Assembly (NCBI GenBank): GCA_017630215.1
Contig: JAGBVR010000009.1
Span: forward strand, 84,581-148,580
Direction: 5' to 3'
From: Bacteroidales bacterium
GTDB taxonomy: Bacteria > Bacteroidota > Bacteroidia > Bacteroidales > UBA932
Length of the DNA: 64,000 nucleotides
A model generated the notes under the pieces. That model searched no databases. It saw only the letters and a program-made list of their open reading frames with translations, and was not told where the DNA came from. The position numbers and the translations under genes were made by a program. This document shows positions 6,316 through 47,845 of this stretch, piece by piece. Each line of letters starts with the position of its first letter. The first letter of the stretch is position 1.

Positions 6316-6334
6316 AATCTTTTCACTGCCAAAT

Positions 6335-7237: not shown

Positions 7238-7253
7238 ACTAATTGATTTTTTG

Positions 7254-7261
7254 CAAAGATC
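7254..7261 (-). promoter_or_regulatory. Candidate -7 box for the peptidase-like gene
   Basis: The minus strand reads GATCTTTG, one mismatch from TAnnTTTG, 17 nt before ATG 7237. It supports the shorter reading frame for the peptidase-like protein. Confidence 0.4.
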
Positions 7262-7351
7262 ATATTGGCGACTGCCAAAGAATAGCAGGTTACTTACTTT
7301 TCTTTGCATTCAACAGGTAGATATATTACCGGTACGTGAGCAATAAATTAT

Positions 7352-7359
7352 TAACTTTG
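7352..7359 (+). promoter_or_regulatory. -7 box for the PLD-like gene
   Basis: TAACTTTG matches TAnnTTTG exactly and ends 18 nt upstream of the ATG at 7378, giving a short leader. Confidence 0.6.
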
Positions 7360-7377
7360 TAATATTGAGATAAGTAT

Positions 7378-8207: not shown

Positions 8208-8239
8208 AGCTTCATGCTTTTAGATATGGCTTTACCGGA

Positions 8240-9886: not shown

Positions 9887-9946
9887 AACTTTTCAAATTT
9901 TCACGATACAAAGGAAATAACTTGTTATGCCAAAATGTGGCAGGGG

Positions 9947-18187: not shown

Positions 18188-18362
18188 GCACCTGAGGACA
18201 TTGGTTAATCGCATGTATAAGCACTAATTGTTTTGTTTCTGTGCCCAAACGTAAATCATTATGTCTGTGGCGAAAGCCAACCAGCGGTGGGCAGACATAA
18301 AATACCTCAGGCTTTAAAAGCCTTCGATCGCCTTGATGGCCCGAGGTCCTAGGTGCTTTTTT
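18188..18362 (+). ncRNA. Structured RNA upstream of the second reverse transcriptase
   Basis: Long-range complementary arms (18188-18199, GCACCTGAGGAC; 18346-18356, GTCCTAGGTGC) pair with one bulge and are followed by TTTTTTT. Inside: a 9-bp stem TTATGTCTG/CAGACATAA (18259-18267 with 18292-18300) enclosing a TGGC-GAAA-GCCA hairpin with a GNRA loop (18268-18279), then a GGCTTTAAAAGCC hairpin (18310-18322). It lies between a good promoter and the RT start. Structured RNAs in this position template or regulate retron and defence-associated RTs (for example DRT2, DRT9). The sequence does not match the 10.9-11.2 kb retron RNA. The T-run suggests that some transcripts end before the RT. Confidence 0.75.
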
Positions 18363-18374
18363 TATACGGTATAT

Positions 18375-26503: not shown

Positions 26504-29395
26504 TTATTTCAATCTTACTATTCTTCCCTGTACGGAATAGAATACCAGTGTGTCAAGTACCTTGTCTCCTGACATCATTGCTGCCGCATCTCGATAGGCG
26601 GCCAGCTGGGGGCCATACTTTCCTGCAAAGAACTTACTGTCTGGATTGGTGACATCGTCAAATCCAGGGTAGTTCTTGTAGTCTACGACCACCACACCAT
26701 CCGGTGTCTCCCAGAGAAGGTCGATTGTTCCGCCCACTATCTGTCCAAGATGGTTCTTGTACATGAATGGATACTCCTTGTGAGCCTTTCCTTTGCCGTA
26801 CTTTTCTGTCAGGTAGCCGTATAGACCTTTCACGGATGCTACAATCGATTTCTTGTCGGTAAGTACTTCACTCATGTCGTGAGCCTCAGCAATCTGACAG
26901 AAAGTCTTTATGACTGAATCCTCCTCCTTGGCTGGATCATATACCGCAAACATATCATGTATGCAGGTTCCGAAGGTGGCGTAATCACTGGTGTTTCCAT
27001 GGGAGATACGCTCGGAGACTGTGGCCACCGCCTCTACTTCTGACTTGTCACCTTTATCGGTGCTCGGAACAATATTCCTGAGCAGATGAGGATTTTCTTC
27101 CTCTACTGGTTTAATTGCCTTGAAAGCAGTTTCCTCTTCCTTCTCAGGTGTATCCTGTGCATCACGGATAAGCTCATAGTATGTCATTGGTGCATCCTTA
27201 CCCCAGAGATCATTATATGTCTGATCCGAAAGGCCCTTAAGGTCAAGTGCACATCCGCACTCATCAAGGAAGGCCTGAGTCTTGCCGCCCATAGATAAGG
27301 TGACAAGGTAATCCCTCGCTCTGGTCATACCAACATACAGAAGCCTACGACTGTCAGAGACTACCTCCTCCCAATAGTCAGCAAAATCAGCCTGTACATT
27401 AGCCTGCACACCAGAATCAATATTTGAATTGAGTGTTGGACGGAAATCCGGACAATAACGTAGCGTGAAGTCTGAGTAAAGGTTATCAGGTGTCGGCTTG
27501 CTTTCTCTTGTCACAGTCACGCCGCAGCAGAAGTGTTTAAGCGCAGCCTTGCTATCCTCTCGTGATGTAGTGTCAAGAATGACAACTGGCCACTCAAGAC
27601 CTTTTGATGCATGGTATGTCATTATCTTCACACCATCCGGGTCTCCCTGTACCTCAATCTCGTCAGGGAATGAGGAAATGAATCCTTCAACGGTTGCATC
27701 AGCAGAACCTTCATACTCTCTGGCAAGCTGTACGATTGCATCAAGTACGCGTGTTCTCAGCTGAGCATCTCCCCATCTTCCGCAATGTTTCTGAAGATTG
27801 AGTCCGTGAATGATGCGCAGCACAAGGTTGGATACTGAAGATGTCTGATATCCAGAACGGATGTCATCAAGAACTTTGAAGATCTCATAATCAAAGCCCT
27901 CGGCGATTAGCTCTTCTAAGCTCTTGTCATACATCAAGCGGGCAATCTCCGCCTTGAGAAGATCAGCATCCGAATCAACCATATAGGTAAGAAGACACTT
28001 TACCAATGCTACTTCTGCACGTCCTGCATTGTATGATTCTGGACAATCCACTGGAATGCCATATGATCTGAGCCATCCAGCCTGTTGTGATATATATGCA
28101 GACTCCCCATCTTTAAGGAAGAGTATGGCAATATCAGAAGGACAGATTTTTCGGAGCTCTTTGCTATCCTTGTCTACCACCATCTTGATGTGGTGCTTTC
28201 CCTCAAGGATATCCCTGACCTTTGCTGCAGTTGCATCCAAGAGCATCTCTCGGTTGGCAGCCTTGCGGGTCTTTCCTTCAGGTACCCTAGCTTCAAGGTC
28301 CCAATGATATATGGCAGGTGGATTGCCAGGCATTGTTGCTGTGCGAACAGCATTAAGCTTTACGTCATCCTTATCAAGGAGTCCTTCGAACATCGGAATA
28401 AAGGTCGAATTCGCTAGCTTAACTAGCGGCTCAACTGATCGCCATGACTTATCTAGCTCTCTACTATACTCATATCCCTTATCCTTGCAGGTCTTGAGAT
28501 GATTCATAATGGCTGCAACAAGTTCTGTGTCACAACCTCTGAAGCGGTATATGGCCTGCTTAGGGTCACCCACCCAGTAGCTTCTTTCAACCAACTCGGA
28601 TAGCTTGTCGAAAATCTTCAACTGGACCTGATTAGAGTCCTGGAACTCGTCCACGAAGACGTACTTTATGGTGTTTCTGATGTCCTCCTTTACAAGGTCA
28701 TTCTCCAACAACTCAAGGAAGAGTGTCTCCATATCACTGAATGAGAGCAGGTTGTTCTTTTCCTTGAACTCATTGAACCCCTTTCTCCAACGTTTGGCAA
28801 TAGAGAAAAGCCTTTCTGTAACCTTGACAATGTCTTCTGCATCACCGCCAGGATACATCTTTCTGATATGCTCGAGTGACTTTGCAAGACAAGCATCAAG
28901 ATCGGTTATACCAAATGTATCACACACCTCAATGATGTTCTTGAGATCATACTTCCAGAAGTCAAGTCTGTATTTTCCTCTGTCCTTTAGATCTCTTGCA
29001 CGCGCAAAACGGTGAAAAAGAGCAATGTCTTCATCTGTGGCTACCTCAGAGAGAGTTCTTGAGATATACACCTCTTTCGCATCATCATCCATCTCATTGA
29101 ATGTCGAGCTTCGTCCCAGAATATACCAGTACTTACGGATATAGTGAAGTCCTACGGAATGTACTGTTCCGATCTTTGCATCTTCAAGGCTTGAAGCCAT
29201 CCCAAGCATACCATTGCTAAGCAGCTTCTCACGGGTCTTCCTCTTGAAGTCTGCAGCAGCGGCCTTTGTGAAGGTGGTAAGGATGACATTCTCAGGTGCT
29301 ACCTTTTCATCCTTGAAGATCTCCAGGAGCTTCTCTGTCAGTTTGAATGTCTTGCCGGATCCGGCACCGGCGTTGTAATATGTGATATTCTTCAT
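26504..29395 (-). CDS. UvrD/AddA-like helicase-nuclease
   Basis: 963 aa. SF1A helicase motifs in order: NAGAGSGKTFK (I, residues 8-15), TTFTKAAAADF (Ia), FVDEFQDSN (II), WVGDPKQAIYRFRG (III), TYHASKGLEWPVV (V) and YVGMTRARDYL (VI). A C-terminal PD-(D/E)xK nuclease follows: GTCIHDMF, GGTIDLLW, VVVDYKNY, and YGPQLAAYRDAA. Domain order equals AddA/RecB. AddAB-type enzymes unwind and trim double-strand ends for repair and destroy foreign linear DNA. Its ATG overlaps the stop of the AddB-like gene by one base, so the two subunits are made together. Plasmid carriage of a complete pair is unusual and may serve replicon recombination or defence. Confidence 0.9.
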   Translation of the reverse strand: MKNITYYNAGAGSGKTFKLTEKLLEIFKDEKVAPENVILTTFTKAAAADFKRKTREKLLSNGMLGMASSLEDAKIGTVHSVGLHYIRKYWYILGRSSTFNEMDDDAKEVYISRTLSEVATDEDIALFHRFARARDLKDRGKYRLDFWKYDLKNIIEVCDTFGITDLDACLAKSLEHIRKMYPGGDAEDIVKVTERLFSIAKRWRKGFNEFKEKNNLLSFSDMETLFLELLENDLVKEDIRNTIKYVFVDEFQDSNQVQLKIFDKLSELVERSYWVGDPKQAIYRFRGCDTELVAAIMNHLKTCKDKGYEYSRELDKSWRSVEPLVKLANSTFIPMFEGLLDKDDVKLNAVRTATMPGNPPAIYHWDLEARVPEGKTRKAANREMLLDATAAKVRDILEGKHHIKMVVDKDSKELRKICPSDIAILFLKDGESAYISQQAGWLRSYGIPVDCPESYNAGRAEVALVKCLLTYMVDSDADLLKAEIARLMYDKSLEELIAEGFDYEIFKVLDDIRSGYQTSSVSNLVLRIIHGLNLQKHCGRWGDAQLRTRVLDAIVQLAREYEGSADATVEGFISSFPDEIEVQGDPDGVKIMTYHASKGLEWPVVILDTTSREDSKAALKHFCCGVTVTRESKPTPDNLYSDFTLRYCPDFRPTLNSNIDSGVQANVQADFADYWEEVVSDSRRLLYVGMTRARDYLVTLSMGGKTQAFLDECGCALDLKGLSDQTYNDLWGKDAPMTYYELIRDAQDTPEKEEETAFKAIKPVEEENPHLLRNIVPSTDKGDKSEVEAVATVSERISHGNTSDYATFGTCIHDMFAVYDPAKEEDSVIKTFCQIAEAHDMSEVLTDKKSIVASVKGLYGYLTEKYGKGKAHKEYPFMYKNHLGQIVGGTIDLLWETPDGVVVVDYKNYPGFDDVTNPDSKFFAGKYGPQLAAYRDAAAMMSGDKVLDTLVFYSVQGRIVRLK

Positions 29396-32076
29396 TATGC
29401 AAGTCCTCCCTTTAAGATAAGATTAGGTGTGCCATAAGGCGAGCTCTTAGTGGTGTCGTCCTCATATGCCCTCTCGAGAGGGTAGAGTCTTCTGGTGTTG
29501 GCATCCTTATGATACTGGATATCAGCCAGACTGAATCCTTCAGCTTCCTCGATGATACCCTGTTCAATCTGTTCCATTCTGTACTCGTATGAGTTGCATG
29601 CGAGCTCAAAATGATCACCGAACTGTTCGCCCTCAATGATCTCCACGATGTCTGATGGCTGTAAATAGTCTACCGATGTGAGGAACTTCCTCAGTGGGAG
29701 AACAAAGTAACCTTCGCAGACAACCTTATGACCATCAGTCTCCATAGCCTTGCGGTAGAGCGCAAGCTGGAGGGTGTTACCCTTCTCGAGACGTCTGTTG
29801 TAGGTCTTGCCTTCGTTCCATTTCATATCGACAATGACCAGATTGCCATCGGCGTCAGCAAGAAGAAGGTCAATGCTTCCGGTAAATGCACCGATAACCG
29901 GGAATACAGTATCAATAGTGTGCTCCATACCGATAACCTTCAAGGCGTTCTCCTCAATGAACCTAAGCAAGGAGTCCACTGCTGGTCTGAGTGCTGCGAG
30001 GAACGAGTTCCTTTCAAGTCGATACTCATCCAGATACATTACCGCACCCTTCTCGCGGATGCATTCCTCAATTCTTTCAGAGTACTTCTCTGCGTGAAGT
30101 TTCTTGGCTGACGTAATCTCCTTGCCGCTATCTTCCAGGAGAGTTTCAATGTATCTATGGGCAACAGTACCCTTGACCGTTGCGATGTCATCCATGCTCT
30201 CTACGCCGTATCCATCCCAGTGGAGGAGGTAGTTAGTGACGTAGTCGAATGGGTAGTTGATCAGCGTGCTCAGACTAGTGTAGCTTTCTCTGCTTCTCTT
30301 GAGACCACCCTTGTCTTTCGGTATGCGGACGCCCTTGAAGTGCTCCGGACTGACTACATGCTCTAGCTGACTTTCCTGTTTTCCAGTCACTTCGAACAGT
30401 GATGTGAACTTTTCGTCAGTGCAGCTCTCTTCCTTCACCGAGCAGCAACTCTTGAGCTCGATCATCAGCGGGTGTTCCTGTACCGGCTCTCCAGCCTCCA
30501 TGTCGCAGGTCATGATGACAAGTGAGTCTTTTACCTGTGAGAGACCGTAAGCTATCATAAGCCTTTGTGCATCGTAAACGGCGCGGGCCGAGTCTGTTTC
30601 AATACCGAGTTCAGCTATATCGGAAGGGGAGAGGAAGTCTAATTCTCTCTGTGTGCCACCACTTGTCCAACAATCCGCCCAGAACAATGTATCCACTGTA
30701 TCAGTAATAGAAGATGGAGTATCGATCACTTCGGATGAACCCAGCTCTGCCGGCATTGCGGTCTGGGTTGTCGGAGCTCCAGCTGATGAAAGCCAACGTA
30801 TGAGTGAATCTATATCAATATCACCAACAAGATCTTCGGTCAGAAGCTCTGCGAACCTACAGTACTGAAGGAGTGATGATCTGCTCTCCAGATCTTTCGC
30901 TGCCCAGGAAGAGAGTCGCTTGAGAAGGGTAGTAAGATCTTCCTTTGTTATTGCTCCACTGGATACTCCAACGTAGGAGACAGTATCAAGAATTCTCTTC
31001 TTGGAATGCCTTAATGGCTTCCTCTCCCAGTTGTACTTCTTTGCATTTAGGATAACCTGCCAACCTTCCCCGAATCCACCTTGAGAGAGAAGATGGTCAC
31101 GTAGTACCTTGTTGACAGATACGAAATACTCTTTGTCGGATCTCACCTGCTTTACGTATATAGATGAAAGAGGGTTCGGCTCTATGGATAAGAATGCCAA
31201 GAGACTATTCACATCAGTATCCTTTTTCCTAAGGGATAGTGCCAGCGGCAGAAGCTTAGCTACTTGAGGAACGGATGAATCTGTGGTCTTTGGAAGCGGG
31301 CGGTTCATGGCCCTGAAGACCTCGCGAAGCATCACCGTCTCACTAGATGAGATGACGGTAGGGTTAGACAATGCTGTGAATCTTAGAGCTTCATCGGAAT
31401 TGTGCATTCGATAGACCTTGAATGATCCATCATCAATCTTTGATAGGTCTATAGCTTTGCCTGAAAGAAGATAATCCTGCAGTGCTCTGAGTCTTGTTCC
31501 TTCAGCAGCTGCTGCGGATGGGGCAGGGGAATATACTACCTCTGCTCCGCATTTATGCGCAGCTGAAAGAAGGGCTGCAAAGTAACATGGCAGCATACCT
31601 TCCGGCAGAACGGACTCAATTGTGATTCCGCTCAGATCTGCCTGACCAGCCTGAAGTGTCTCCAGAAGTTCCCTTTTGCAGTCTGCCACTCCTGCGCAGT
31701 CAAAGTGCTTCTCGATATCCATCAGAGCATTAAGCTTCTGGGACTTGGTATAGTCGGAAGGATTCCATCCAAGGCCTACTAGTGTGTCTCGCCATCCAAG
31801 AAGTGTCATAGCCACGCCTAGCTCATCCTTACCGAAAGAAGAACGGAAGATTTCTGCATGCGAACCTTTGTTCTCCTTGAATGTGGAACGTATGGCCTTC
31901 ATATACTGAGCAGTACGCTCCATTGAGTCAGGAAGCACTGATGTCAGGCCTGAACGAAGTCTCAGTTCTCCGATCAGTTCCTGGCTTCCTGCATATTTCT
32001 GTCCTATCAGAGATCCTTTCTTGTCAAGATCTATAAAGACATGGTTTCCAAAGAATGGACTGAATATAATCTTCAT
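29395..32076 (-). CDS. AddB-like PD-(D/E)xK nuclease subunit
   Basis: 893 aa. No intact Walker A was found at the N-terminus (opening KIIFSPFFGNHVFID), as in AddB-like subunits with inactive helicase folds. The C-terminal ~270 residues form a PD-(D/E)xK nuclease: VKGTVAHRYIE near 645, TGSIDLLL near 740, LVIVDMKWNEG near 752 and LQLALYRKAM. No AddB-type four-cysteine Fe-S motif was evident by eye. It is the promoter-proximal gene of the pair and overlaps the AddA-like gene by one base. Identity as AddB rests mainly on the partner and the nuclease domain. Confidence 0.8.
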   Translation of the reverse strand: MKIIFSPFFGNHVFIDLDKKGSLIGQKYAGSQELIGELRLRSGLTSVLPDSMERTAQYMKAIRSTFKENKGSHAEIFRSSFGKDELGVAMTLLGWRDTLVGLGWNPSDYTKSQKLNALMDIEKHFDCAGVADCKRELLETLQAGQADLSGITIESVLPEGMLPCYFAALLSAAHKCGAEVVYSPAPSAAAAEGTRLRALQDYLLSGKAIDLSKIDDGSFKVYRMHNSDEALRFTALSNPTVISSSETVMLREVFRAMNRPLPKTTDSSVPQVAKLLPLALSLRKKDTDVNSLLAFLSIEPNPLSSIYVKQVRSDKEYFVSVNKVLRDHLLSQGGFGEGWQVILNAKKYNWERKPLRHSKKRILDTVSYVGVSSGAITKEDLTTLLKRLSSWAAKDLESRSSLLQYCRFAELLTEDLVGDIDIDSLIRWLSSAGAPTTQTAMPAELGSSEVIDTPSSITDTVDTLFWADCWTSGGTQRELDFLSPSDIAELGIETDSARAVYDAQRLMIAYGLSQVKDSLVIMTCDMEAGEPVQEHPLMIELKSCCSVKEESCTDEKFTSLFEVTGKQESQLEHVVSPEHFKGVRIPKDKGGLKRSRESYTSLSTLINYPFDYVTNYLLHWDGYGVESMDDIATVKGTVAHRYIETLLEDSGKEITSAKKLHAEKYSERIEECIREKGAVMYLDEYRLERNSFLAALRPAVDSLLRFIEENALKVIGMEHTIDTVFPVIGAFTGSIDLLLADADGNLVIVDMKWNEGKTYNRRLEKGNTLQLALYRKAMETDGHKVVCEGYFVLPLRKFLTSVDYLQPSDIVEIIEGEQFGDHFELACNSYEYRMEQIEQGIIEEAEGFSLADIQYHKDANTRRLYPLERAYEDDTTKSSPYGTPNLILKGGLA

Positions 32077-33024: not shown

Positions 33025-34299
33025 CTACTTTTTTTCTACTTTTAACCTATACGGGCCATTAGAGACACGTTTAATATTCACCTTTGTCTTTCTAGGGTTT
33101 AATGTCTGCCCTTCATTAAAGCCTGGTACAACTACTTTAGCATCCTGATTGTTTGAATCTTTTTTTTCTTCTTCAGCCCAGCATTTGTCACCATAGTGAA
33201 GAATTCCATCGGTTATCTTAAAGCTAACCCCAGCTTCAATATCATCCCTTAACTTGTATACCCTTTGCCTATTTTGGACAGGATTCGAATGTGAGTTCTT
33301 ATATGCCGCCAAATACATTATGATGTCACAGAGTTGATAGACCAAGAAGTAAGAACTATATATACCTCCTGTTTCTGTCGCATATTCCACACATGCCCTC
33401 TTTAGCTTAGACCACTCATCTTCTTTTATGAAATTTTCGTTATTGACACGCATAACATGTGAATCAGTAACTGTTGTATATAGATATATGGTCTTCAGGT
33501 TCTGCGCCATAAGATAAGGCAATATAGGGCCTTCTATATCAATTACTCCAAATGCGTTATTTTTTATATCTTTCCCATACTCATTATTTGTCTGCTCTCC
33601 ACAAAGATATAAAACAATATCTCTTAGATTAAGCTCGTTTCCATCTTGTTTATAACACTCACTTGGAATCAACCCAACTTCTTGTCTTATAAGCGAATGG
33701 AAAAGATATTCAAGAACCTTTCTTAATTTAGCAATGCCAGGACGTTTGTTTCTATATTCTTTGAAATGGAACGCCTTAAGAAAACCCAAGAGAATTTCTT
33801 GACTTTCTTCATTAAGATCGAGATGTTTTGTTGCCTCAAAAACTTTTGGATACATATCCATTACGGCACGATCTTCACGTGTTGATGCTAACTTCTTGAT
33901 GTCCTCTATCAGTTGCTCTGTTCCCTCCCATCCTTTTCTATATATGGGAATGTCTCTGTATGAATTTATAAATTCTTGATTATCAAATAACTTTATCTGG
34001 CCGGTAAAGATAAATATTGGTAAATTTATGTTGTTTGTATAAGCTATCTTTTGAATCTGTTGTATAGCATAATTCAAACCAGACTTATCCCATCCAGCTC
34101 CTTCATTAATATATCCTACAGCGTCAAGTAATGCCAAATCCCATGCTCCTGGATTATCCTTAAGACGCTCTACGAATTGTTCTGCGTATTTCTCAGCATG
34201 TAATACGATACCTTCGTCCTCAAACTGGGCCCTCCAGTCTTCATTAGAAAGCATCTCCTCTGACTCATCATCTAACCAAAGTACTTTAATCTCGTTCAT
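33025..34299 (-). CDS. Receiver-domain protein with unknown C-terminal domain
   Basis: 424 aa. The first ~125 residues form a CheY-like receiver with all key residues: Asp10/Asp11 (VLWLDDES), Asp59 (LALLDAVG), Thr99 (IFIFTG) and Lys122 (YRKGWEG). The other ~300 residues are not a DNA-binding HTH or any output domain I know: a helical part (~150-260) and a mixed part (FGVIDIEGPILPYLMA near 245, YLYTTVTDSHVM near 275), with a basic, disordered tail. It starts 14 nt after the stop of the histidine-kinase-like gene, so they form a two-component-like operon. Phosphorylation probably switches the unknown C-terminal domain, possibly an effector. Confidence 0.75.
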   Translation of the reverse strand: MNEIKVLWLDDESEEMLSNEDWRAQFEDEGIVLHAEKYAEQFVERLKDNPGAWDLALLDAVGYINEGAGWDKSGLNYAIQQIQKIAYTNNINLPIFIFTGQIKLFDNQEFINSYRDIPIYRKGWEGTEQLIEDIKKLASTREDRAVMDMYPKVFEATKHLDLNEESQEILLGFLKAFHFKEYRNKRPGIAKLRKVLEYLFHSLIRQEVGLIPSECYKQDGNELNLRDIVLYLCGEQTNNEYGKDIKNNAFGVIDIEGPILPYLMAQNLKTIYLYTTVTDSHVMRVNNENFIKEDEWSKLKRACVEYATETGGIYSSYFLVYQLCDIIMYLAAYKNSHSNPVQNRQRVYKLRDDIEAGVSFKITDGILHYGDKCWAEEEKKDSNNQDAKVVVPGFNEGQTLNPRKTKVNIKRVSNGPYRLKVEKK

Positions 34300-34313
34300 T
34301 CCTTACTATTCTT

Positions 34314-37016
34314 TTAGTATGATCTGATGCCTCGCCTTTTTCTATATTTAGATAATAGATTATCAACTACTTTTTTTACATAGTCAACATTAACTACTCT
34401 CTTACCATTCTCATCCAATGACGTGATGTCATTGATCCAGTGTATATCTTCTGGGGGGTCACTATGATATGGACGACCATCCGAATCGATGTAGATGTTA
34501 TCATCGTCATCCAAATCATATCCATAATCTTGAAGTGGGATAATATATACTTCTAACCCTTCTTCCCAAGTAATATCAAACCCAGTATTTATAATGTATT
34601 CCTCATATTCAATATGGTCGTTAACTATACCATAAATGGTGTCAAAGGCATACTCCTTCATAAAGGTAGTCTCGTCAAAGGCAATGACGGCAGGGAAGTA
34701 TATCATTACCCGTGTCTTGCTATATTCGCCTATTTCATCTTTTACTGAATGTGGAGCTTCATATCCTCCACCGAAATGCCTTGTCATTTCGCTTATATAT
34801 GCTCCGCCGAGTCCTTCTCCTTTTGAACCCTTGACATCTGCATGCCAGCCTGACATTCCGAACTGGGCTTTTGTCATTTCAGGAGCTGGATATCCGTTAT
34901 TCTCGAATACGAAGCATACTCGGTGACCTCCATCCTCATTTTCGTCACAATAAACTCTGATGTTGAGATAGTAGTCTCCTCTGTTTGGGTCTCTGAATCC
35001 ATGCTTCTCCGCATTGCTGATGATATTTTCAACTACCTGACTGAAATCATCTGGGTTGACATTTATTGCAAACTTAGCTTCAATATCATCAAATGTAGCC
35101 ATGTCAAGATTGTAGGAAAGCGTATAATTCTTGACTGCTCTATTAGATTCAAGATTCTTAAAAAATTGATCGAAACCAAACTCTCTTGTCTCTTTGAATT
35201 GATTTTCATCTGCGATTCTATCTAATCTTCCATCAAGATCCTTCCAGTAGCCGACTAATCTGTTGACTCTGTTGAACAATGCCTTTACATCAATCTCTCC
35301 TGTCTGGTTCGATTGCTCTACTTGCTTTTGTAGTTGTCGGATACTAGCTGATATATTTTCTCTGACTGTACCAAGATTGTGTTTCTTTGTTCTAATAAGT
35401 GTTTTGTACTCGTTCTTGAGCCTTTGCACTTCTTCACTTAATCCCAACTCTTTAATCTTGGTTAGCTTGTTCGCTTTAATCGTGTCCTCTACAATCCTTC
35501 TCTGTTCAGGTAATGCAGGGAATGATATAGGATAGTTAAGTATATATGTGCGTGATAGTGCAGATGAACTTAACCCCTCAATAGAGCGCAACTTGAAGAT
35601 CAGATATTCCGGATCAATACGACTCTCATCTACCTCTAGAATCATTAGCAAATTGTCAGCATAGATTTTACTTCCTTCTGTATGCTTATAGTATGCTGCA
35701 CTTAAACGACGTCCGCGCGGAGCTATCAGTACACAAGATTTCTCAAGTTCGACACAATTCTTATGATATGCCTCGCGGTTTGGTTCTATTGTGTCAATAT
35801 TTATTTGGAATTCAGTAAGGTTCTTCTCAAGGTGAGTCGGTTTTAATAAAACGATATTTTCCACTTCTCTCATCCTTACAGGTGTCATCACTTGAAGCTT
35901 GTATGGAGAAGTCAATTCCTTTAATGGATATGCTTGATAACCTTCGGGTAATGATTCTACTGGCCTGAGATAGGCTTGAGGATTGAGGTTGAAATTCTCT
36001 TCGGCAATAAGCTCTAAAGAGACCTCAGTCTTATTATCTATGTGGCCATTTGTAATATCGTCTAAAAGCCTAGAAGAATTTAGGATGTTGTGTCGCGAAT
36101 TACTAATATGATAATACTCTGTTCCACTAGCATCCATCATCGTTACAGGCTTACCTTCAGGTCTGTCTTTTTCACATACGAGAACTGCAACATTCACCCC
36201 TGTTCCCATAAGCATTGAAGAAGGAAGAAGGATTACTTTATCGAGGAGGTTCCTTTCGACAATTATGTTTGCCCTGTTTCTTGAGTTGAATAATCTTCCT
36301 GTAGGTACAACGAAAATGGCCTTACCATGAGGAGTTAGACGATAGAAATACTCCTCAAGGTCGATATCAAATTCTCTTGATAAGGAGATGCTGACAAGAT
36401 TTTCATAAGAATATATCTCATTCTGCTCATGATGTGTGCAAGTATAATTTTTTGATGGCAACTTATCATGTAATAGCATCTTGGATATTCCGATATACCA
36501 CAATATCTCATCTTGGGTTGTGCCAAAGTAATCATTGCCAATGTTGAGAACACTACCAATTATACCTTCTCCTGCATTTGGATTGTATACTACTCCGCCA
36601 CGATAATCTAGAAGTTCTACTAATAATTCTGATAATTCTTGAGTCGGAGTAGGGTCTTCATAACGCATTTTCTTATCGAGAATAGCGTCCAGAACTCTTT
36701 GACACTCATCAGTGGTTAGATGGTGATGTGTTAACTCATTGTATATCTCATTTATGGCTGGAGCATTGTCTACTTCCCCTATCCAATATTTTCTTACTTC
36801 TGACCAAATTTTTTCTAATAGGTATGACTTGTAGCTATTCTCACCTATGCGATCAAAACTACTATCTACTGGATATATGCGTTCTTTAAGAAATACAAGG
36901 ATAGATGTCTGAATTTTTATGACTTCATCGGCCATCAATCCATATTTGTATGAATCAATCTCACGCAATCTTGCGTAAATATTATTAATAACTGATCTCC
37001 TATCGTTCAGATTCAT
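34314..37016 (-). CDS. Histidine-kinase-like protein with degenerate type I restriction M/S module
   Basis: 900 aa. Residues ~1-330 resemble HsdM: a helical N-terminus, PTPTQELSELLVELLDYRGG (122-141), a broken SAM loop YNPNAGEG (144-151) and VVPTGRLFNSR, but no NPPF/NPPY catalytic motif, so methylation is unlikely. Residues ~345-520 resemble one target-recognition half of HsdS, ending in SFPALPEQRRIVEDT. A coiled coil follows with a candidate phospho-His (KKHNLGTVRENI, His ~546), then a GHKL ATPase: N box VVENIISNAEKHGF (~660) and G box GSKGEGLGGAYISEM (~735). A ~130-residue acidic tail ends the chain. Inference: a DNA-contacting sensor that signals by phosphotransfer to the adjacent receiver protein. 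Confidence 0.8.
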   Translation of the reverse strand: MNLNDRRSVINNIYARLREIDSYKYGLMADEVIKIQTSILVFLKERIYPVDSSFDRIGENSYKSYLLEKIWSEVRKYWIGEVDNAPAINEIYNELTHHHLTTDECQRVLDAILDKKMRYEDPTPTQELSELLVELLDYRGGVVYNPNAGEGIIGSVLNIGNDYFGTTQDEILWYIGISKMLLHDKLPSKNYTCTHHEQNEIYSYENLVSISLSREFDIDLEEYFYRLTPHGKAIFVVPTGRLFNSRNRANIIVERNLLDKVILLPSSMLMGTGVNVAVLVCEKDRPEGKPVTMMDASGTEYYHISNSRHNILNSSRLLDDITNGHIDNKTEVSLELIAEENFNLNPQAYLRPVESLPEGYQAYPLKELTSPYKLQVMTPVRMREVENIVLLKPTHLEKNLTEFQINIDTIEPNREAYHKNCVELEKSCVLIAPRGRRLSAAYYKHTEGSKIYADNLLMILEVDESRIDPEYLIFKLRSIEGLSSSALSRTYILNYPISFPALPEQRRIVEDTIKANKLTKIKELGLSEEVQRLKNEYKTLIRTKKHNLGTVRENISASIRQLQKQVEQSNQTGEIDVKALFNRVNRLVGYWKDLDGRLDRIADENQFKETREFGFDQFFKNLESNRAVKNYTLSYNLDMATFDDIEAKFAINVNPDDFSQVVENIISNAEKHGFRDPNRGDYYLNIRVYCDENEDGGHRVCFVFENNGYPAPEMTKAQFGMSGWHADVKGSKGEGLGGAYISEMTRHFGGGYEAPHSVKDEIGEYSKTRVMIYFPAVIAFDETTFMKEYAFDTIYGIVNDHIEYEEYIINTGFDITWEEGLEVYIIPLQDYGYDLDDDDNIYIDSDGRPYHSDPPEDIHWINDITSLDENGKRVVNVDYVKKVVDNLLSKYRKRRGIRSY

Positions 37017-37215
37017 AAGATATATGCTTAAACATGTAAAGTTAATAATTCATAAGTAAAGGTCAAACTTCATGACCATCAATTATTTTTATTCATATGT
37101 TTTTACCAGCTTTACGTTGTATGGTTACAATAAAAACAAGATAAATTTCCTGTAACATCGATTCTCAGTCAGGGTATATACTTTCGAACCTGCTCAAGTG
37201 CAGGCAACGAACCAA

Positions 37216-38934
37216 ATGAACAGAAGACCGAAAAGCAGAAGAGCAATGAGGGATTTAGATCCAACAATGATGGAGATCAGGGAAGCAAGAGACAAGGATA
37301 CGATGTCAACATCGGCATGTCTCAATAGAATCATGTTGAAGGTAGAGCAGGAGTCATTTTGTGATGCAGTAAAGCAGGAGTTAATGGGTGACTTCGATTA
37401 TGTGCAAAAGATGCTCGGCATCTGTCCTGAAGAGGCAGCTATACTTTCATGCGTTTTGGAAAATAGTAATGGATTCCACACATGTGATGATGAGGATTTG
37501 GCGCGCTTCATGGGATGCACTAACATCGAGTTTATCAGCTTCCGACAATATCTTGATACTCTGGCACAGAAAAGAATCGTGAGAATCGCAAAGAATCGTG
37601 GTGGTATGTCATACATCGTCCTTAAAGAAGCATGCAGGGCAATTATCGATAATGCTGAATTCTCAGAGAAGAACTTTGCTGGACTTACAAGCGAAGAAAT
37701 GTTTTCACAGATGCGTAAGTTGTTTACTTCTCTTCGCGAGGAGGAAATAACAGAAGATATGCTTCTTACAGACCTTAATATGCTTGTAGATGTTAATCCC
37801 CAGAACATCTTCAGCCAGAGAGTAATGGATTGTGGCATCCGTAACTTCTCGAGTGACGAGCAGCGCATTTTCTATTACCTCTGTCATAGATATGTCAGCT
37901 TTGGTGATAAATTTCTTCCATTCCATCAGTTTGGTGAACTTATTTCCGATAAGGAAGATGAACAGAAGTTCTTCAGACACTTCCAGGCTGGAAAGATGAA
38001 CTCTCAGATTCATGGCATCATCTGCTTTGGTGGTGAGGATGGTCTTATGGACAAAGGATCCGCAGGACTTTCTGATAAGATACGTGATACCTTCTTTACT
38101 GAAGTCGATCTCTTCTGTGAGGACCGCATTGAGGGGCATAAGGATCTTTTGAGCTGCGAAAATATCGTGGCGAAGGAACTCTTCTATAATGAACCTGAAC
38201 AGATTCAGGTAAAGCGCCTTGAAGGCCTTCTTGAGGAGGAGAACTTTAATGGTGTCCAGACTCGTCTTGAGGAGATGGGCATGAGAAAGGGCTTTAACAT
38301 CATCCTATATGGAGGCCCAGGTACTGGTAAGACAGAGACTACTATGCAGTTGGCAAAGAAGACAGGACGTGACGTGTTCTGCATTGACTTCTCTAAGATC
38401 AAGAGTAAGTGGGTTGGAGATTCTGAGAAGGCAATTAAGGGCGTCTTCAATATCTATAGGACGCTCTGCAAGACAAAGCCAGTGAAGCCTATCCTTTTCT
38501 TCAACGAGGCAGATGCTATCTTTGGCAAGAGAATGGAGAATGTGGAGTCATCTGCTGCCCAGATGCTCAATACCATGCAGAATATCATTCTACAGGAGAT
38601 GGAGAACCTTGAGGGTATCCTTATCTGTACTACTAATCTTCATGGTAATCTTGACTCGGCGTTCGAGCGTAGATTCATATATAAGATCGAGCTTGAAAAG
38701 CCAGGAGAGGAGGTGAGAGCGAAGATCTGGAACTCAATGATGAAGGAACTCCCTGCGGATGATTGCGCCATTCTTGCCCGCAGATACCCGTTCAGTGGTG
38801 GCCAGATTGAGAATGTGGTGCGTAAGAGTGCGGTGGAATACATCCTCTCTGGTACTAAGCCTACAGTCAATACCATCTGCAAGTTCTGTGAGGAGGAGAA
38901 CTTCAAGTCAAAGGTCAGAAGAGTCGGATTCTGA
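37216..38934 (+). CDS. AAA+ ATPase with C-terminal RVGF motif, paralogue of 8240-9886
   Basis: 572 aa from ATG 37216 (a GTG at 37198 would add six residues). The N-terminal ~330 residues are helical and unrecognised. AAA+ core: Walker A GGPGTGKTET (~366), KSKWVGDSEKAIKG, Walker B ILFFNEADAIFGKR with Asn at the first acidic position, sensor-1 CTTNLHG, FERRF, and SGGQIENVVRKS in the small domain. It ends in RRVGF. It is very close to the 8240-9886 ATPase across the core but less so in the N-terminal region, so the two probably share a mechanism and differ in target. It stands alone, divergent from the histidine-kinase gene, and is followed by a terminator. Confidence 0.85.
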   Translation: MNRRPKSRRAMRDLDPTMMEIREARDKDTMSTSACLNRIMLKVEQESFCDAVKQELMGDFDYVQKMLGICPEEAAILSCVLENSNGFHTCDDEDLARFMGCTNIEFISFRQYLDTLAQKRIVRIAKNRGGMSYIVLKEACRAIIDNAEFSEKNFAGLTSEEMFSQMRKLFTSLREEEITEDMLLTDLNMLVDVNPQNIFSQRVMDCGIRNFSSDEQRIFYYLCHRYVSFGDKFLPFHQFGELISDKEDEQKFFRHFQAGKMNSQIHGIICFGGEDGLMDKGSAGLSDKIRDTFFTEVDLFCEDRIEGHKDLLSCENIVAKELFYNEPEQIQVKRLEGLLEEENFNGVQTRLEEMGMRKGFNIILYGGPGTGKTETTMQLAKKTGRDVFCIDFSKIKSKWVGDSEKAIKGVFNIYRTLCKTKPVKPILFFNEADAIFGKRMENVESSAAQMLNTMQNIILQEMENLEGILICTTNLHGNLDSAFERRFIYKIELEKPGEEVRAKIWNSMMKELPADDCAILARRYPFSGGQIENVVRKSAVEYILSGTKPTVNTICKFCEEENFKSKVRRVGF

Positions 38935-39014: not shown

Positions 39015-39075
39015 ATTTTATACCCTAATGTTACCGACGAGTTTATCAGTAGTATGTATTAACAAACATACTTAC

Positions 39076-39789
39076 ATGAACAAGATACACTTCATCTATC
39101 AACAGCTTAAAGACGTAAAGCTTTTTGATTCTCTTTCCTCAGTAGTAGAATCTGTTGATGCTCTTATTCCTAGTAACGAAGAAGAGTTTACTGAGCTGCT
39201 TAAGTTCGGACTCTATCCCGCAGAGAATTGCCAACCTTTCACTACAAAGCAGAAGACTCCGTTCTACAATCTCGACAATATGGCAGTCATACCTCTTCAT
39301 GAAGAGGATAAGTGGATGCATTACGGTGACTTTAGATTCCGTCAGTTGGAGATTCTTTACAATATGGTACGTATGGACTCGGTTGAAGCGCATAACTGGC
39401 TCAAGGATAATCTCTTCCAGAAAAGAGTTGATGCTAGAAAGAAGACCGAGTATAAGGCAAAATTCAGAGGCCTACAGCGTAAGGATTGGAAAAGAATCCA
39501 GACAGAGTGGATGAAGTATTGCCTCAATCTAAAGTATAGGGATTTCGCTAGTTTCAGAAGGGATCTTCTCTCAACCGACAAGGTGCCAGTAGAAGATGCA
39601 ACCTCTACTAATTATGCTTCTAACCTGTTCTGGGGAGCAAAGCTTGTCGAGGTTGATGGACGTAAGTACTACTTTGGATGCAATGTCCTTGGTAAGCTAT
39701 TGGTCCTGCTTCGAGAAACAAAAGGTAGGATTCCTTATAGCCTTCCTGAGGATCTTCATCTGTTTGGTAAACCAATCCTTGCGATCTAA
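39076..39789 (+). CDS. NADAR-like protein
   Basis: 237 aa from ATG 39076 (an in-frame ATG at 39028 is less likely). NADAR-like pattern: residues ~55-125 FYNLDNMAVIPL ... RFRQLEILYNMVRM, then WMKYCLNLKYRDFASFRRDLLS, an ATSTNYASNLFWGAKL segment in place of the usual D-x-x-WG, and GCNVLGKLLVLLRE. Compared with the 16412-17014 NADAR protein the order is the same but the residues around the D-x-x-WG site differ, so activity may have changed. NADAR proteins act on ADP-ribose linkages. It is followed after 22 nt by a small cysteine-rich gene. Confidence 0.65.
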   Translation: MNKIHFIYQQLKDVKLFDSLSSVVESVDALIPSNEEEFTELLKFGLYPAENCQPFTTKQKTPFYNLDNMAVIPLHEEDKWMHYGDFRFRQLEILYNMVRMDSVEAHNWLKDNLFQKRVDARKKTEYKAKFRGLQRKDWKRIQTEWMKYCLNLKYRDFASFRRDLLSTDKVPVEDATSTNYASNLFWGAKLVEVDGRKYYFGCNVLGKLLVLLRETKGRIPYSLPEDLHLFGKPILAI

Positions 39790-41536: not shown

Positions 41537-42325
41537 TTACATATGATCTGATAAAAGACTCAAGAAATTCTCTAATATTCTGATATCTTCATAGACATCA
41601 ACTTCATCAGAACAGAGCCAGTTGTTATGCATAATTCTATTACGGATATAGGTGACTTGAGATGTCTGTTTGTGGAAGTCAGCCATATCCAAGGATTTGC
41701 TTATGGACAGTCGAGGCCAAATTCTCTCATTGTTCATTACATAAGAGAAATTTCCCATTGTGAGATCTTTAACCCGCTCTATATTCTTCTTTTGTGTTAG
41801 TTTCTGAAGCTCAATAATCTCGATATCTGCCGATGCGATTATTGTTCTTAGATGTGACTCAATCTCTCCAATGAGTGTAAATCCTTGAAGAATTACAGAA
41901 TACAAAGCAGACAGATCGGATACTGTTATCAACCCCATCACATTGAGGTCGTATATAGAGTCTACAATGATAAGGAACTCGCTTGTCCGTATACGTGCCA
42001 ATGCGTCTCTTATAGGTGCGTCTAAAGAGATTATTTTATTGTCTAAAGAAGTGCAGTAATAATCAGCTACAACTCCACATAAAGTTGCTTCGCTCTTGCA
42101 TACCCCCCTAAAAACACTTTCCCACGATAGAAAACCTTGAAGTTTCCCTTCATAAGAACACACTGGGACTTGAGAATACCTATTAGTACTCATCTTACGG
42201 ATTGCCATAAGAATATCCATATCCCCATTGAAGACCGAAGGATTTTTTACGCCTCCTCTCTCCAAGAAATCACCTATTGTTTCCGGGATATCCAGGCTGA
42301 TTTGTAATTCTCTATTATTCTCCAT
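41537..42325 (-). CDS. CBS-pair protein with HEPN-like C-terminal domain
   Basis: 262 aa. Residues ~15-155 hold two CBS-type repeats (MDILMAIRKMSTNRYSQVPV ... GFLSWESVF; APIRDALARIRTSEFLIIVD ... GLITVSDL), which bind adenine nucleotides. The C-terminal ~100 residues are helical and end with YIRNRIMHNNW, an R-x4-H motif like that of Abi/HEPN RNases. A nucleotide-gated RNase is therefore a reasonable inference. HEPN proteins of this type abort phage infection or act as toxins. No clear antitoxin follows; the neighbouring 42372-42980 gene is AbiEi-like and only 46 nt upstream on the same strand. Confidence 0.7.
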   Translation of the reverse strand: MENNRELQISLDIPETIGDFLERGGVKNPSVFNGDMDILMAIRKMSTNRYSQVPVCSYEGKLQGFLSWESVFRGVCKSEATLCGVVADYYCTSLDNKIISLDAPIRDALARIRTSEFLIIVDSIYDLNVMGLITVSDLSALYSVILQGFTLIGEIESHLRTIIASADIEIIELQKLTQKKNIERVKDLTMGNFSYVMNNERIWPRLSISKSLDMADFHKQTSQVTYIRNRIMHNNWLCSDEVDVYEDIRILENFLSLLSDHM

Positions 42326-42371
42326 AAATGTCTGACATACTTAATTCACAATATTACATTATTATTTATAA

Positions 42372-42980
42372 TCATTTGTTCCAAATATCAAGCATTATCT
42401 CACCCACCCATGCGGGAGGTATGGTAATGTCCTTCATGAACTCATTATCTGGAACCGACCTGAGATGCTTATGGATTATTCGCTTCTTCTCGCCATCTAG
42501 ACAATCATCAGTCAGAACTCTTATCGCAGAAGAAACCATCTGCATCGTGTCGTTGCAGAAGTCGAACATCTTAACTTCGGAGGTATGATTGAAGAAGATC
42601 TTCTTACCCTCCGATAGATTGATGACTCTAGAAGGACCGTCAGTTAGATATTTCAGATTGGATAGCTGCAGTCCCGACAGTCCCAACTTATATGCAGCCT
42701 GATCTCCGTAAGGTATGATTCTCACTCGTTCTTTGGTTGCCAGAGCATCTGCTATACTTTCTGCTGTCGGCATTATGAATCCTGAGTATTCGCTATGGAT
42801 TTTAGGGTAGCAATAGATTCCTCTGGCTGGTCGTAGGATCAATCCTTCCTTCTTGAGTTCCATCAGGGCTAATCTGACTGAGCCAAGACTGCCTAATTCG
42901 ATGAAATCATCTATGAAAAAGATGCTTCCTCGAGGCATTTTTCGGATCTTTTCTAAAACCAATGTCTTTATCCCAATCAT
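42372..42980 (-). CDS. AbiEi-like / DUF6088 protein (orphan antitoxin-type)
   Basis: 202 aa. Winged-helix N-terminus (GSIFFIDDFIELGSLGSVRLALMELKKEGLI with RPARGIYCYPK after it), then TAESIADALATKERVRIIPYGDQAAYKLGLS, a layout shared with AbiEi antitoxins of type IV toxin-antitoxin loci and DUF6088. AbiEi represses its operon and counters the nucleotidyltransferase AbiEii. No AbiEii-type gene is present; instead the next gene encodes a CBS-HEPN protein. Either this is an orphan regulator or the HEPN protein is the new partner. It has a clean promoter. Confidence 0.75.
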   Translation of the reverse strand: MIGIKTLVLEKIRKMPRGSIFFIDDFIELGSLGSVRLALMELKKEGLILRPARGIYCYPKIHSEYSGFIMPTAESIADALATKERVRIIPYGDQAAYKLGLSGLQLSNLKYLTDGPSRVINLSEGKKIFFNHTSEVKMFDFCNDTMQMVSSAIRVLTDDCLDGEKKRIIHKHLRSVPDNEFMKDITIPPAWVGEIMLDIWNK

Positions 42981-43934: not shown

Positions 43935-44617
43935 CTGATCTTTATATAGGTAATATTTCTGCCACACTCGATTGTTTCCTTCCTAGCGGAATATAGGAGA
44001 TGATTGTCTTCGTATGTACAGAGAGCAGAAATCTGTATGTTCTCTTTCTTGACTCCGCACTCAATCAGAGTCTGACGGCAAGCCTCCTTCAGATCGATAT
44101 GATGACCGCCAGTCATATCGATTCCATTCTTTGGTCCACGGAAGGACCATATGGAATTTATATCAAATCCAGCTTCCTTGAAATTTAGAGCCACCTCCTC
44201 CCCTACCTGGAAACAATCAGCACAAATACCTGGGCCGATTACTGCAAGCAGCTCTGCTGGCTGAGTTCCGTAAGTACTTGACATCTTGGATATTACATTT
44301 CGAAGAATCTTTGCTACAGTACCTCTCCATCCGCTATGTACCGCTCCGGCTGCCTTATTGACCGGGTCATAGAGAAGAATCGGAATACAATCTGCAGTCC
44401 TGACTCCAATAGCAAATCCAGGAAGATTTGTAATCATAGCATCGTATCCATCCAGCTTATCTGAGGTAATATCAGGATTATCGATGACAGCCACATGAAC
44501 GTCATGGACCTGATGCATCTGAAGAACTGGGTATGGCAAAGCCACATCCCTACCCACAGTCATTGCTGATACGTCAGGATGAAGAGAATACTCTATATGA
44601 TTTACCATGCTATCCAT
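43931..44617 (-). CDS. pgeF: PgeF/YfiH family (multicopper oxidase-like) protein
   Basis: 228 aa, close to the usual 230-245. Family motifs: QMHQVH near 35, RTADCIPILLYDP near 76, AVHSGWRGT near 95, GPGICADCFQVGEEV near 130 and a final CTYEDNHLLYSARKE, including the zinc/active-site His and Cys. YfiH proteins (renamed PgeF) remove L-Ser wrongly built into peptidoglycan precursors and have also been described as purine nucleoside phosphorylase-like. Its ATG overlaps the rep stop by one base, so it is translated from the rep transcript. A chromosomal housekeeping gene in this position is unusual. Confidence 0.9.
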   Translation of the reverse strand: MDSMVNHIEYSLHPDVSAMTVGRDVALPYPVLQMHQVHDVHVAVIDNPDITSDKLDGYDAMITNLPGFAIGVRTADCIPILLYDPVNKAAGAVHSGWRGTVAKILRNVISKMSSTYGTQPAELLAVIGPGICADCFQVGEEVALNFKEAGFDINSIWSFRGPKNGIDMTGGHHIDLKEACRQTLIECGVKKENIQISALCTYEDNHLLYSARKETIECGRNITYIKIS

Positions 44618-45750
44618 TACTGCTCGTCTACACCAAAAATATCCTTAAGAGAAGTAGGCTCCTTCTTTGTGACCGTTGCCTTCTTTGCTATCTTCTTGTC
44701 CTGCAATATGATACCATCCTCTATGAGAATACCATGATGCTCACTGAGATGCTTCTTGATAGCATTGATCACATAACCCTGAGGCTTGACAGCCCTAAGT
44801 GCCTTTGGAGCAATCTGTTGCAGAAATTCATACAAGTCAAACTCCTTCTGCGCTATGTCAAAGAGAGATATATTTGCTTTGATACCGACCCAGTCAAAGC
44901 CGAACTTAGTCCGGAGAAGATCAGTGATCGACTTATCGAGCATCATAGACGGATCCACTTTCTTACGTATTGCATCCGTAGATTCATTATTAAGACGATG
45001 TATCGGGAAGAATGTCACAGAAGTAATGGCAGGTCTACCCTTCCTTCCCTTGTTTACAACTGCAGACTTAGCAGAATTCAGCGCATATTCAAAAGAATAC
45101 GGACTTATCTTATCCAGCTCATCTTTAGCCGACACGATGGTATTCTTTATAAAATCATCCACCTTCTTATATTTCTCAGTAAGCCCCCACATCTTCCTAA
45201 GATCTTCAATGAGATATGTGATAGGCTGTGCCTGCTTGCTGACAAGCTTATATATTCTAAGCGAATACTTACCTCTTAATTTAGTAGCAGTCTCTAACTC
45301 ATACTTTCTGAAACCCTTACTGAAGTCGAGCATCGCATTCCACACATTCCTGTTCACCTGAATGACCATCTTGCCGGCAACTTTATCCATATCGACCTCA
45401 TTAAGAATCTGAGTAGCCTTATAGACATTGTCATCCTCATACTCCAGGAACTTACCCATGAGCTGACGTACAGATTGCTTGGCTTTAGTATAATTGGTAT
45501 CCTCCTCACCAGAAAGTATATCCTTGACAGGAATGGTGATTTCCATGTGCCCCCAAGAGCCAACCATTACCTTTCCAAGGTCAGTCCCACCTTTGAAGTC
45601 AAGACCATTGATCTCACACTGGGCCAATTCAACCAAGCGCAGAAGCAATCTCTCGGAATATATACCGAAATCATGACGGACTGTTGAAAATATATATGAC
45701 TCAACTACTTCCTTCGAAATTTTCTCCTTTGATTCAGCTGATTCTGCCAT
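44617..45750 (-). CDS. Rep_3-family plasmid replication initiator
   Basis: 377 aa. Two winged-helix halves typical of Rep_3/RepB: residues ~20-150 (LLRLVELAQCEINGL ... TKAKQSVRQLMGKFLEYED) and ~165-270 (LRGKYSLRIYKLVSKQAQ, LRKMWGLTEKYKKVDDFIKN, the DNA-binding helix, ALNSAKSAVVNKGRKGRP). The C-terminal ~100 residues are lysine-rich and family-specific. It initiates replication by binding iterons, which lie directly upstream at 45.8-46.8 kb, one of them inside its own promoter, so it probably also represses itself. The frame is complete; pgeF follows by one-base overlap. Confidence 0.9.
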   Translation of the reverse strand: MAESAESKEKISKEVVESYIFSTVRHDFGIYSERLLLRLVELAQCEINGLDFKGGTDLGKVMVGSWGHMEITIPVKDILSGEEDTNYTKAKQSVRQLMGKFLEYEDDNVYKATQILNEVDMDKVAGKMVIQVNRNVWNAMLDFSKGFRKYELETATKLRGKYSLRIYKLVSKQAQPITYLIEDLRKMWGLTEKYKKVDDFIKNTIVSAKDELDKISPYSFEYALNSAKSAVVNKGRKGRPAITSVTFFPIHRLNNESTDAIRKKVDPSMMLDKSITDLLRTKFGFDWVGIKANISLFDIAQKEFDLYEFLQQIAPKALRAVKPQGYVINAIKKHLSEHHGILIEDGIILQDKKIAKKATVTKKEPTSLKDIFGVDEQ

Positions 45751-47080: not shown

Positions 47081-47845
47081 ATGGGACAGACAATCGCATT
47101 TTGCAATAACAAAGGAGGCGTTGGAAAGAGCAGTTCTTGTGTGGCTATTGGACAGGCATGGGCTAGAATGGGAAAGAAAGTTCTTTTCGTCGACCTAGAC
47201 TCTCAGGCCAACCTTACATCTATAGTATCAACTCTTGATCCTTCGCAGAGGGAAGTTTCAATCAGAGATGCATTCCTTAATCCGGATCTCTTCTCGATCG
47301 AGAATGTAGGCGAGAACATGGACCTAGTGGCTTCAGATCTATCTCTATCGAATTTCGATAGAGATACAGCAGCAATCGCAGGACGTGAGTATTTACTCTT
47401 GGATCTCCTTAAGGATGTGAAGGCAAATTATGATTTTATCCTCATTGACTGCCCTCCTGCGCTCGGACTCATTACCTATAATGCTTTGATAGCCGCTGAT
47501 CACCTTGTGATGGTGACAACTGCTGATCAACTCAGCTACCAGGGTCTTGTAATGGTAGCAAATCTTTTCGCTGATGTTAAGAGCAACGAGAGACTTAACA
47601 AGACTCTTAAGCTTACTGGAGTTATTGTAACACGTTATGAAAAGAATAAAGTCTCCGAGCTCTACCTCAATAAGATTAAGCAGGAACTTGGTCAGGCTGT
47701 CATTGAGCCAGTAATCAGAAAGGCTACAAAGATGCAGCAGGCTGTATCGCTCAAGCAGAGTATATATGATCTGGATCCTAGTGGAAAAGTAACTGCAGAT
47801 TATATTGAAGTAGCAAGGCAGCTGGCTTTACGTATTCTACAGTGA
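47081..47845 (+). CDS. parA: ParA partition ATPase
   Basis: 254 aa. Deviant Walker A NNKGGVGKSS (residues ~9-18), Walker A' DLDSQANLT near 40 and Walker B DFILIDCPPALGL near 125, the full ParA/MinD set. The N-terminus is short with no HTH extension, as in type Ib partition ATPases. It moves plasmid copies apart through ATP-driven nucleoid binding, using a small DNA-binding partner, here the RHH protein 56 nt downstream. AT-rich repeats on both sides are the likely centromere and operator. Confidence 0.95.
   Translation: MGQTIAFCNNKGGVGKSSSCVAIGQAWARMGKKVLFVDLDSQANLTSIVSTLDPSQREVSIRDAFLNPDLFSIENVGENMDLVASDLSLSNFDRDTAAIAGREYLLLDLLKDVKANYDFILIDCPPALGLITYNALIAADHLVMVTTADQLSYQGLVMVANLFADVKSNERLNKTLKLTGVIVTRYEKNKVSELYLNKIKQELGQAVIEPVIRKATKMQQAVSLKQSIYDLDPSGKVTADYIEVARQLALRILQ

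Follow-up and report, generated by a model that had tools for sequence, protein, structure and literature searches.

Gene pairs resembling two-component systems, of the families HEF_HK (PF19191) and Response_reg_2 (PF19192), are described near restriction-modification (R-M) systems in the available part of Bellieny-Rabelo 2021 (PMC8011034). As the available part of a paper on CapK (PMC13373217) shows, DNA can directly activate a GHKL kinase that lies near immune operons; WYL repressors sensing single-stranded DNA are named in the paper's references. Type I restriction in Escherichia coli is kept off the cell's own unmodified DNA via proteolysis and enzyme assembly, according to the consulted sections of a paper on restriction alleviation (PMC12707154). 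Here, a kinase gene and a response regulator gene were analyzed in a 64,000-nucleotide stretch (contig JAGBVR010000009.1, positions 84,581 to 148,580, assembly GCA_017630215.1) from a Bacteroidales bacterium; this whole stretch is called the window. The two proteins are very probably a kinase-receiver pair with a methyltransferase-derived sensor. Taken as a whole, we lean toward reading them as a soluble DNA-sensing two-component module that informs immune operons, with a retired type I methyltransferase as its sensor.

Architecture of the kinase

The two genes lie 14 nucleotides apart on the minus strand (Table 1). An earlier note on this DNA had delimited both open reading frames (ORFs) and had described the kinase as one chain with an HsdM-like region that lacks NPPF and has a broken S-adenosylmethionine (SAM) loop, an HsdS-like recognition half, a candidate phospho-His, and a GHKL ATPase with N and G boxes; all of these parts were recovered here. 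A profile of ten kinases (A6) is collinear at positions 5-409 with residues 2-489 of the 520 residues of EcoR124II HsdM (E 3.1e-44), and its positions 513-580 match the C-terminal helices of HsdS (E about 3e-10). On the window kinase itself, the Pfam profile N6_Mtase matched residues 223-352 (E 1.9e-13, above the cut-off, second half of the profile only), Methylase_S matched residues 416-511 (E 0.049, below the cut-off), and the PADLOC model Specificity_I matched residues 354-535 (E 1.9e-7). Nineteen of its 20 PADLOC matches were partial type I methylase or specificity models, and the remaining one was a type II methylase. Across the A6 members at E<=0.1, Pfam matches were obtained for N6_Mtase (10/10), HATPase_c (9/10), Methylase_S (7/10), and HATPase_c_5 (4/10). 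Only one Methylase_S-like region was found by Pfam in the window kinase and in A6, not the two recognition domains of an HsdS. The sequence PALPEQRRIV in the kinase is presumably a motif of the kind found in HsdS repeats.

Motif I of the window kinase reads NPNAGEG and there is no NPPF, so the signature of an active type I HsdM (DPxxG in motif I, NPP[F/Y] in motif IV) is absent. DP in motif I and NPP[F/Y] in motif IV occurred together in 0/33 kinases versus 12/12 true HsdM proteins, the latter being 11 that adjoin kinase-receiver pairs and the window genome's own (further HsdM existed and were left out). Among the 33 kinases, DP was retained in 4 and NPPF in 1, and 6 had no aligned motif I. 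Because the catalytic residues of motifs I and IV are not retained, the methylase looks retired across the whole kinase family. The GQE of motif II is kept in many kinases, not in the window copy.

The second part of the chain resembles a sensor histidine kinase. A6 positions 565-809 matched the DHp and CA domains of the sensor kinase in PDB entries 2c2a and 3dge, which we take to be HK853 (E 1.5e-8), and His546 was aligned as histidine in 32 of the 33 kinases, the exception (L048) being unaligned there. The N box (N664, N668, H672) and the G boxes (N706-x-G708, G735-x-G737) were invariant across the ten A6 kinases, and HATPase_c matched residues 655-775 of the window kinase just below the cut-off (E 2.5e-5). 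A predicted DHp helix with a conserved His is thus found together with N, G1, and G2 boxes, as in sensor histidine kinases.

Receiver and output domains

The residues that the earlier note had picked out in the receiver are conserved. Using window numbering, D11, D59, K122, R193, and H281 were invariant in 21 receivers, D10, G100, E197, and S280 were nearly so, and position 99 was T or S in all members of a ten-receiver profile (A7). The protein would therefore have the two acidic residues, phospho-Asp, Thr/Ser, and Lys of a response regulator. The Pfam profile Response_reg matched none of the ten A7 members at E<=1, the window receiver had no match in Pfam and none in PADLOC, and the PDB receiver 3jte was matched by the receiver profile at E 0.0099 only.

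The region behind the receiver domain had been described as an unknown C-terminus of about 300 residues; its main part still matches nothing informative, but a conserved output domain and a cold-shock-like domain can now be discerned. The output domain (residues about 141-346) appears helical on reading its sequence, and R193, E197, and H281 were invariant in it among 15 receivers (A9). The C-terminus was matched through a 14-member domain profile to the RNA chaperone 3i2z, which we assume to be CspE, at E 6.9e-6 (whole-receiver profile, E 0.029). No recognized DNA-binding domain was found in the receiver. The output domain is swappable: at one locus (L042, positions 2438-6686), the receiver is fused to SLFN_AlbA_2, and the genes after it encode an AAA_5 and a McrBC-family protein.

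Distribution, adjacency, and linkage to immune genes

The pair represents a Bacteroidota family that is sparsely distributed and has no name in Pfam. Among 296 searched genomes of the phylum, four besides the window's own had the window kinase at E<=1e-20, and the receiver profile was matched in 11/295 genomes of the order draw, the window's own included. The pair is also present in three plasmid records of Myroides odoratimimus (gene table examined for one). A contig pattern scan gave nine loci, all titled Bacteroidota (Flavobacterium, Rufibacter, Psychroflexus, Pontibacter, and five metagenome-assembled genomes); two of these are the contigs of earlier matches (L054 is L009, and L061 is L011).

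Context was tabulated for 38 loci (the window; L007-L011; L036-L053; L055-L060 and L062; L094-L099; L101), among which the L098 and L099 pairs are alike and come from two genomes. Several of the locus stretches stop at contig ends, and context counts are therefore lower bounds; gene names in the loci come from small profiles of our own, backed by Pfam or record annotation where cited. The homologue and neighbor search suggested in the earlier note bore out the pairing. An ORF matching the kinase profile adjoins the receiver in 36/38 loci, with none in L051 and L052, counting L053 despite a broken kinase and L040 despite a weak match (46 bits); six loci (L007, L094-L097, L101) had been found via the kinase, so that there the finding is the adjacent receiver. 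The pair is no chance ORF, because homologous pairs recur elsewhere in the same order.

Linkage to R-M genes was counted in the 13 receiver-bearing genomes of the phylum draw, which were picked regardless of context. A true PF02384 match other than the kinase lay within 10 kb of the receiver in eight of them, with 0.16 expected from how many PF02384 matches each genome has (genome sizes rounded, P about 5e-13); among the eight, the hsdM of G138 is on the opposite strand beyond another gene, and that of G053 is 8.6 kb off. In the 38 loci, a true hsdM was seen in 17 (L011 judged from L061), an 18th being cut at a contig end (L058), and a WYL-type gene was seen in 21, excluding a 63-bit partial match in L096. 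WYL-kinase-receiver-hsdM-hsdS-hsdR is a common order, and the full operon also occurs in the window's genus (L099). In single loci, the kinase-receiver pair directly follows type III-A csm genes (L040, positions 605-9974, the kinase match being the weak one), a related kinase has an N-terminal HNH domain (L045, 3381-5615), and another has Methylase_S and a sub-threshold HNH (L047, 4762-6963). This context of WYL, type I R-M, once McrBC, and once CRISPR III-A fits an immune-operon sensor module no less well than a stand-alone effector system.

Pairwise distances between kinase and receiver were correlated at r 0.76 (30 loci; also 0.76 in the 14 with hsdM), and those between HsdM and HsdS at r 0.73 (14 loci). 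Values across the two sets were lower: kinase versus HsdM, r 0.28 (permutation p 0.02, 14 loci); kinase versus HsdS, r 0.38 (p 0.008); receiver versus HsdM, r 0.40. As kinase-receiver and HsdM-HsdS each co-vary strongly and kinase-HsdM only weakly, two modules appear to have been combined in different ways, though not independently of descent.

That the system is phage-borne was also considered and rejected. Pattern scans of IMG/VR, whose reach extends to close relatives, gave none, and the window kinase had no match in a phage collection. A Flavobacterium kinase had 79 phage-record matches; among the best 20, 19 span <=42% of the query. The longest match, to MT835483, spans 80% and lies near a conjugative TraM gene, the record having the look of an integrative element. 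This record (L101, MT835483.1), filed as a bacteriophage, holds TraM and the order WYL-kinase-receiver-hsdM-hsdS, followed by a 1120-amino-acid gene.

Recognition domain of the kinase

If the kinase read the sites of the adjacent R-M system, its recognition domain would need to track the adjacent HsdS. The cognate HsdS was the best match of the kinase recognition domain in 3/16 loci (17 HsdS compared; chance about 1/17), namely L037, L056, and L099 with 24.6-26.2 bits, and it was second in L008 with 32 bits. Reading of the same site as the adjacent HsdS is thus unsupported. Mean identity over 12 loci was 35.0% for the kinase recognition domain, 23.8% for the first 200 residues of HsdS, and 21.0% for the last 200, the halves being cut crudely by length; shuffled controls for the comparison gave 19.5% and 18.6%. 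Since the recognition domain is conserved where the HsdS halves vary, the sensor seems to read something common to hosts, such as any DNA, an unvarying signal, or a protein. The earlier proposal of a DNA-reading kinase is supported in part: the M/S-derived sensor joined to a histidine kinase and the cognate receiver are borne out, and the family is linked to R-M systems. DNA binding, phosphotransfer, and a trigger by unmodified or foreign DNA are putative, and reading of the partner's sites is doubtful.

Features of the window and neighboring genes

Coordinates of the pair and its parts are collected in Table 1. The candidate promoter follows TTTG-N19-TAnnTTTR, the Bacteroidota promoter consensus; it is the sole match in the window, where 0.39 are expected per 64 kb, and 33/100 shuffles have one.

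Table 1 Features of the kinase-receiver pair in the 64-kb window
Feature	Position	Strand	Remarks
Sensor histidine kinase built on HsdM and half HsdS	34314..37016	-	900 amino acids
Response regulator	33025..34299	-	424 amino acids
HsdM-like region, kinase residues 1-352	35961..37016	-	Motif I NPNAG; motif IV lost; motif II GQE changed to GTTQD
Degenerate SAM-binding motif I, YNPNAGEGIIG, residues 144-154	36555..36587	-	
HsdS-like target-recognition domain, kinase residues about 355-510	35487..35954	-	
PALPEQRRIV motif, kinase residues 500-509	35490..35519	-	Q505 invariant in A6
DHp-like helices, candidate phospho-His546 (codon 35379-35381)	35202..35396	-	
GHKL catalytic domain, residues about 640-776, N and G boxes	34689..35099	-	HATPase_c match
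C-terminal extension, kinase residues 777-900	34314..34688	-	Not in five other aligned kinases
Receiver domain, residues 1-138: D10, D11, D59 (codon 34123-34125), T99, K122	33886..34299	-	
Conserved receiver output domain without recognized fold, residues about 141-346	33262..33879	-	
Cold-shock-like (CSD/OB) domain, diverged in the window copy	33028..33261	-	Family profile vs 3i2z
Candidate Bacteroidota-type promoter TTTG-N19-TAnnTTTR	37037..37067	-	Ends 20 nucleotides before kinase start

The window copy is an orphan among defense-like genes. Apart from the kinase, PF02384 matched one gene of the genome at E<=1e-10, an hsdM about 46 kb off on the same contig that is followed by hsdS-, hsdR-, and YgjP-like genes; its product is 44-46% identical to the HsdM proteins next to the L010 and L038 pairs. 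The family's WYL protein has a homologue with 38% identity about 100 kb from the window pair. The assembly is 58% complete, so more genes may be absent from it. A sigma-like gene downstream, 223 nucleotides away, was excluded as part of the system, with homologues in 0/80 other genomes of the genus (E<=1e-30).

Divergent from the kinase is an AAA ATPase gene (37198-38934, plus strand) whose product is IetA-like in its C-terminal part (E 1e-28) after about 350 unmatched residues, and then a NADAR protein (39028-39789, plus) with a weak likeness to anti-phage DS32_2 (E 5e-15, below the cut-off). A CBS protein (41537-42980, minus) is like anti-phage DS11 (E 9e-38, below the cut-off) and is preceded by an AbiEi-like DUF6088 gene. 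At 49648-51453 (plus), one protein combines a protein kinase domain with an AAA ATPase domain and resembles PADLOC PD-T4-6 and IetA, and the defense reverse transcriptase model RT_UG39 was matched strongly at 18333-20096 (plus, E 2e-105). The region with a Rep_3 replication initiator (44617-45750, minus) and ParA (47081-47845, plus) may include an integrated plasmid. At 26504-32076 (minus), a UvrD-type helicase with a PD-(D/E)XK nuclease is found with an 893-amino-acid partner, an arrangement that we take to be AddAB-like.

Interpretation

Type I methyltransferases are M2S clamps. From homology, motifs, adjacency, co-variation, and context, which were observed in the sequences, we infer a dimer clamp, DNA binding, phosphotransfer, and an output. 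As each kinase chain has one HsdM and one half HsdS, a kinase dimer would bring together two M parts and two recognition halves and could resemble such a clamp. It would close on DNA without methylating it, and the closing, or the failure to close, would pass along the S-like helix to the next helix, that of DHp, upon which His546 and then receiver Asp59 would be phosphorylated. Acting on nucleic acid or on a partner, the output and cold-shock-like domains might then control how active an immune operon is or how strongly it is expressed; in the family, this operon is most commonly the type I R-M system next to the pair. Because no R-M system adjoins the window pair, this copy may target a different immune gene in trans or else its own output domain.

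That the pair senses DNA is probable, and that it informs an immune operon is evenly balanced. Several observations weigh against this reading. Site-specific reading is doubtful, as the recognition domain is conserved and little like the adjacent HsdS and could bind protein or any DNA, and few kinases have an M part as eroded as that of the window copy. The window pair has neither an R-M nor a WYL gene next to it. In 5 of the 13 sampled genomes, no hsdM lies within 10 kb of the receiver, and in 20 of the 38 loci the stretch examined shows none, several of these being cut contigs. The family is sparse, with the receiver profile in 13/395 genomes of the phylum draw including its own (12/394 others) and the window receiver in 3/200 genomes of the genus including its own (2/199 others). 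For the output domain, Pfam gave no match, the best profile comparison was an uninformative CdiI fragment (E 0.012), and its identification as DUF4145 was unsupported (probability 0.1% in a comparison with only three DUF4145 proteins). The G1 box is N-x-G instead of D-x-G. From the last point, the GHKL domain could be read as a structural ATPase or as a dead kinase, a reading that is highly improbable given the nearly universal His546, the sensor-kinase match over DHp and CA, and a co-varying receiver that retains its acidic site and Lys.

Stand-alone defense, in which a kinase sensing phage DNA triggers a harmful receiver output and infection is ended by growth arrest or death, is rather unlikely. 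It would suit an orphan among defense-like genes, the pairs with no hsdM in the examined stretch (e.g., L039, L046, L050, L094, L095), and a swappable output domain, but the family is strongly linked to hsdM, and no known toxin fold was found in the main output domain. The M/S part might instead sense proteins, assembling with HsdM, HsdS, or HsdR to report whether the R-M complex is complete. M and S naturally partner M and S, and the conserved, non-diversifying recognition domain agrees with this, but kinase-HsdM co-variation is weak, the module seems to move between R-M systems, and copies exist with no hsdM nearby; we regard protein sensing as distinctly unlikely. Within the favored DNA-sensing module, a more specific and doubtful version is that the kinase reads DNA methylation, the retired dimer probing sites without marking them and the phosphorelay signaling self or non-self to immune operons and so timing restriction. 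If the DNA-sensing module is correct, a kinase made from the DNA-reading parts of a restriction enzyme at the head of an operon would be a direct control input, the control of type I restriction on a cell's own DNA would become testable in Bacteroidota, and a ready DNA-to-phosphate sensor would be at hand.

Comparison with known systems

Detocs is a phage defense system with two-component logic, as in the window pair; no Detocs model was among the PADLOC matches of the pair (the presence of such a model in PADLOC was unchecked, and no dedicated comparison was made). No description of an HsdM-HsdS-kinase chain was recognized in the open-licence literature searched. The likeness to type I R-M runs along roughly the first 60% of the kinase chain as HsdM/HsdS homology (EcoR124II HsdM), whereas in the window chain the M motifs are lost, one recognition half is present, and these parts are fused to a kinase. 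With the sensor kinase 2c2a/3dge, the DHp and CA domains align, and the sensor and the G1 box differ. The Fig. 6 legend in the available part of the DefensePredictor paper (PMC13092281) names HATPase and REC, which may or may not be the same as the window pair.

HEF_HK/Response_reg_2 pairs share with this family soluble kinase-like and receiver-like neighbors linked to R-M genes, a linkage that is found in the family and not in the window copy. They differ in favoring type II C5 methylases, and no M/S sensor appears in the available parts of the paper (PMC8011034). Neither PF19191 nor PF19192 matched A6 (E<=0.1) or A7 (E<=1), so membership was rejected, and PF19192 had no match in the window genome. 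For CapK, no STAS domain was among the Pfam matches here, the partner being a receiver. In the available part of its description (PMC13373217), CapK/CapS is likewise a GHKL kinase and its substrate upstream of diverse immune operons, with CapK switched on by DNA, but CapK phosphorylates a serine of a STAS-wHTH repressor, whereas the window pair combines a receiver with an HsdM/HsdS sensor.

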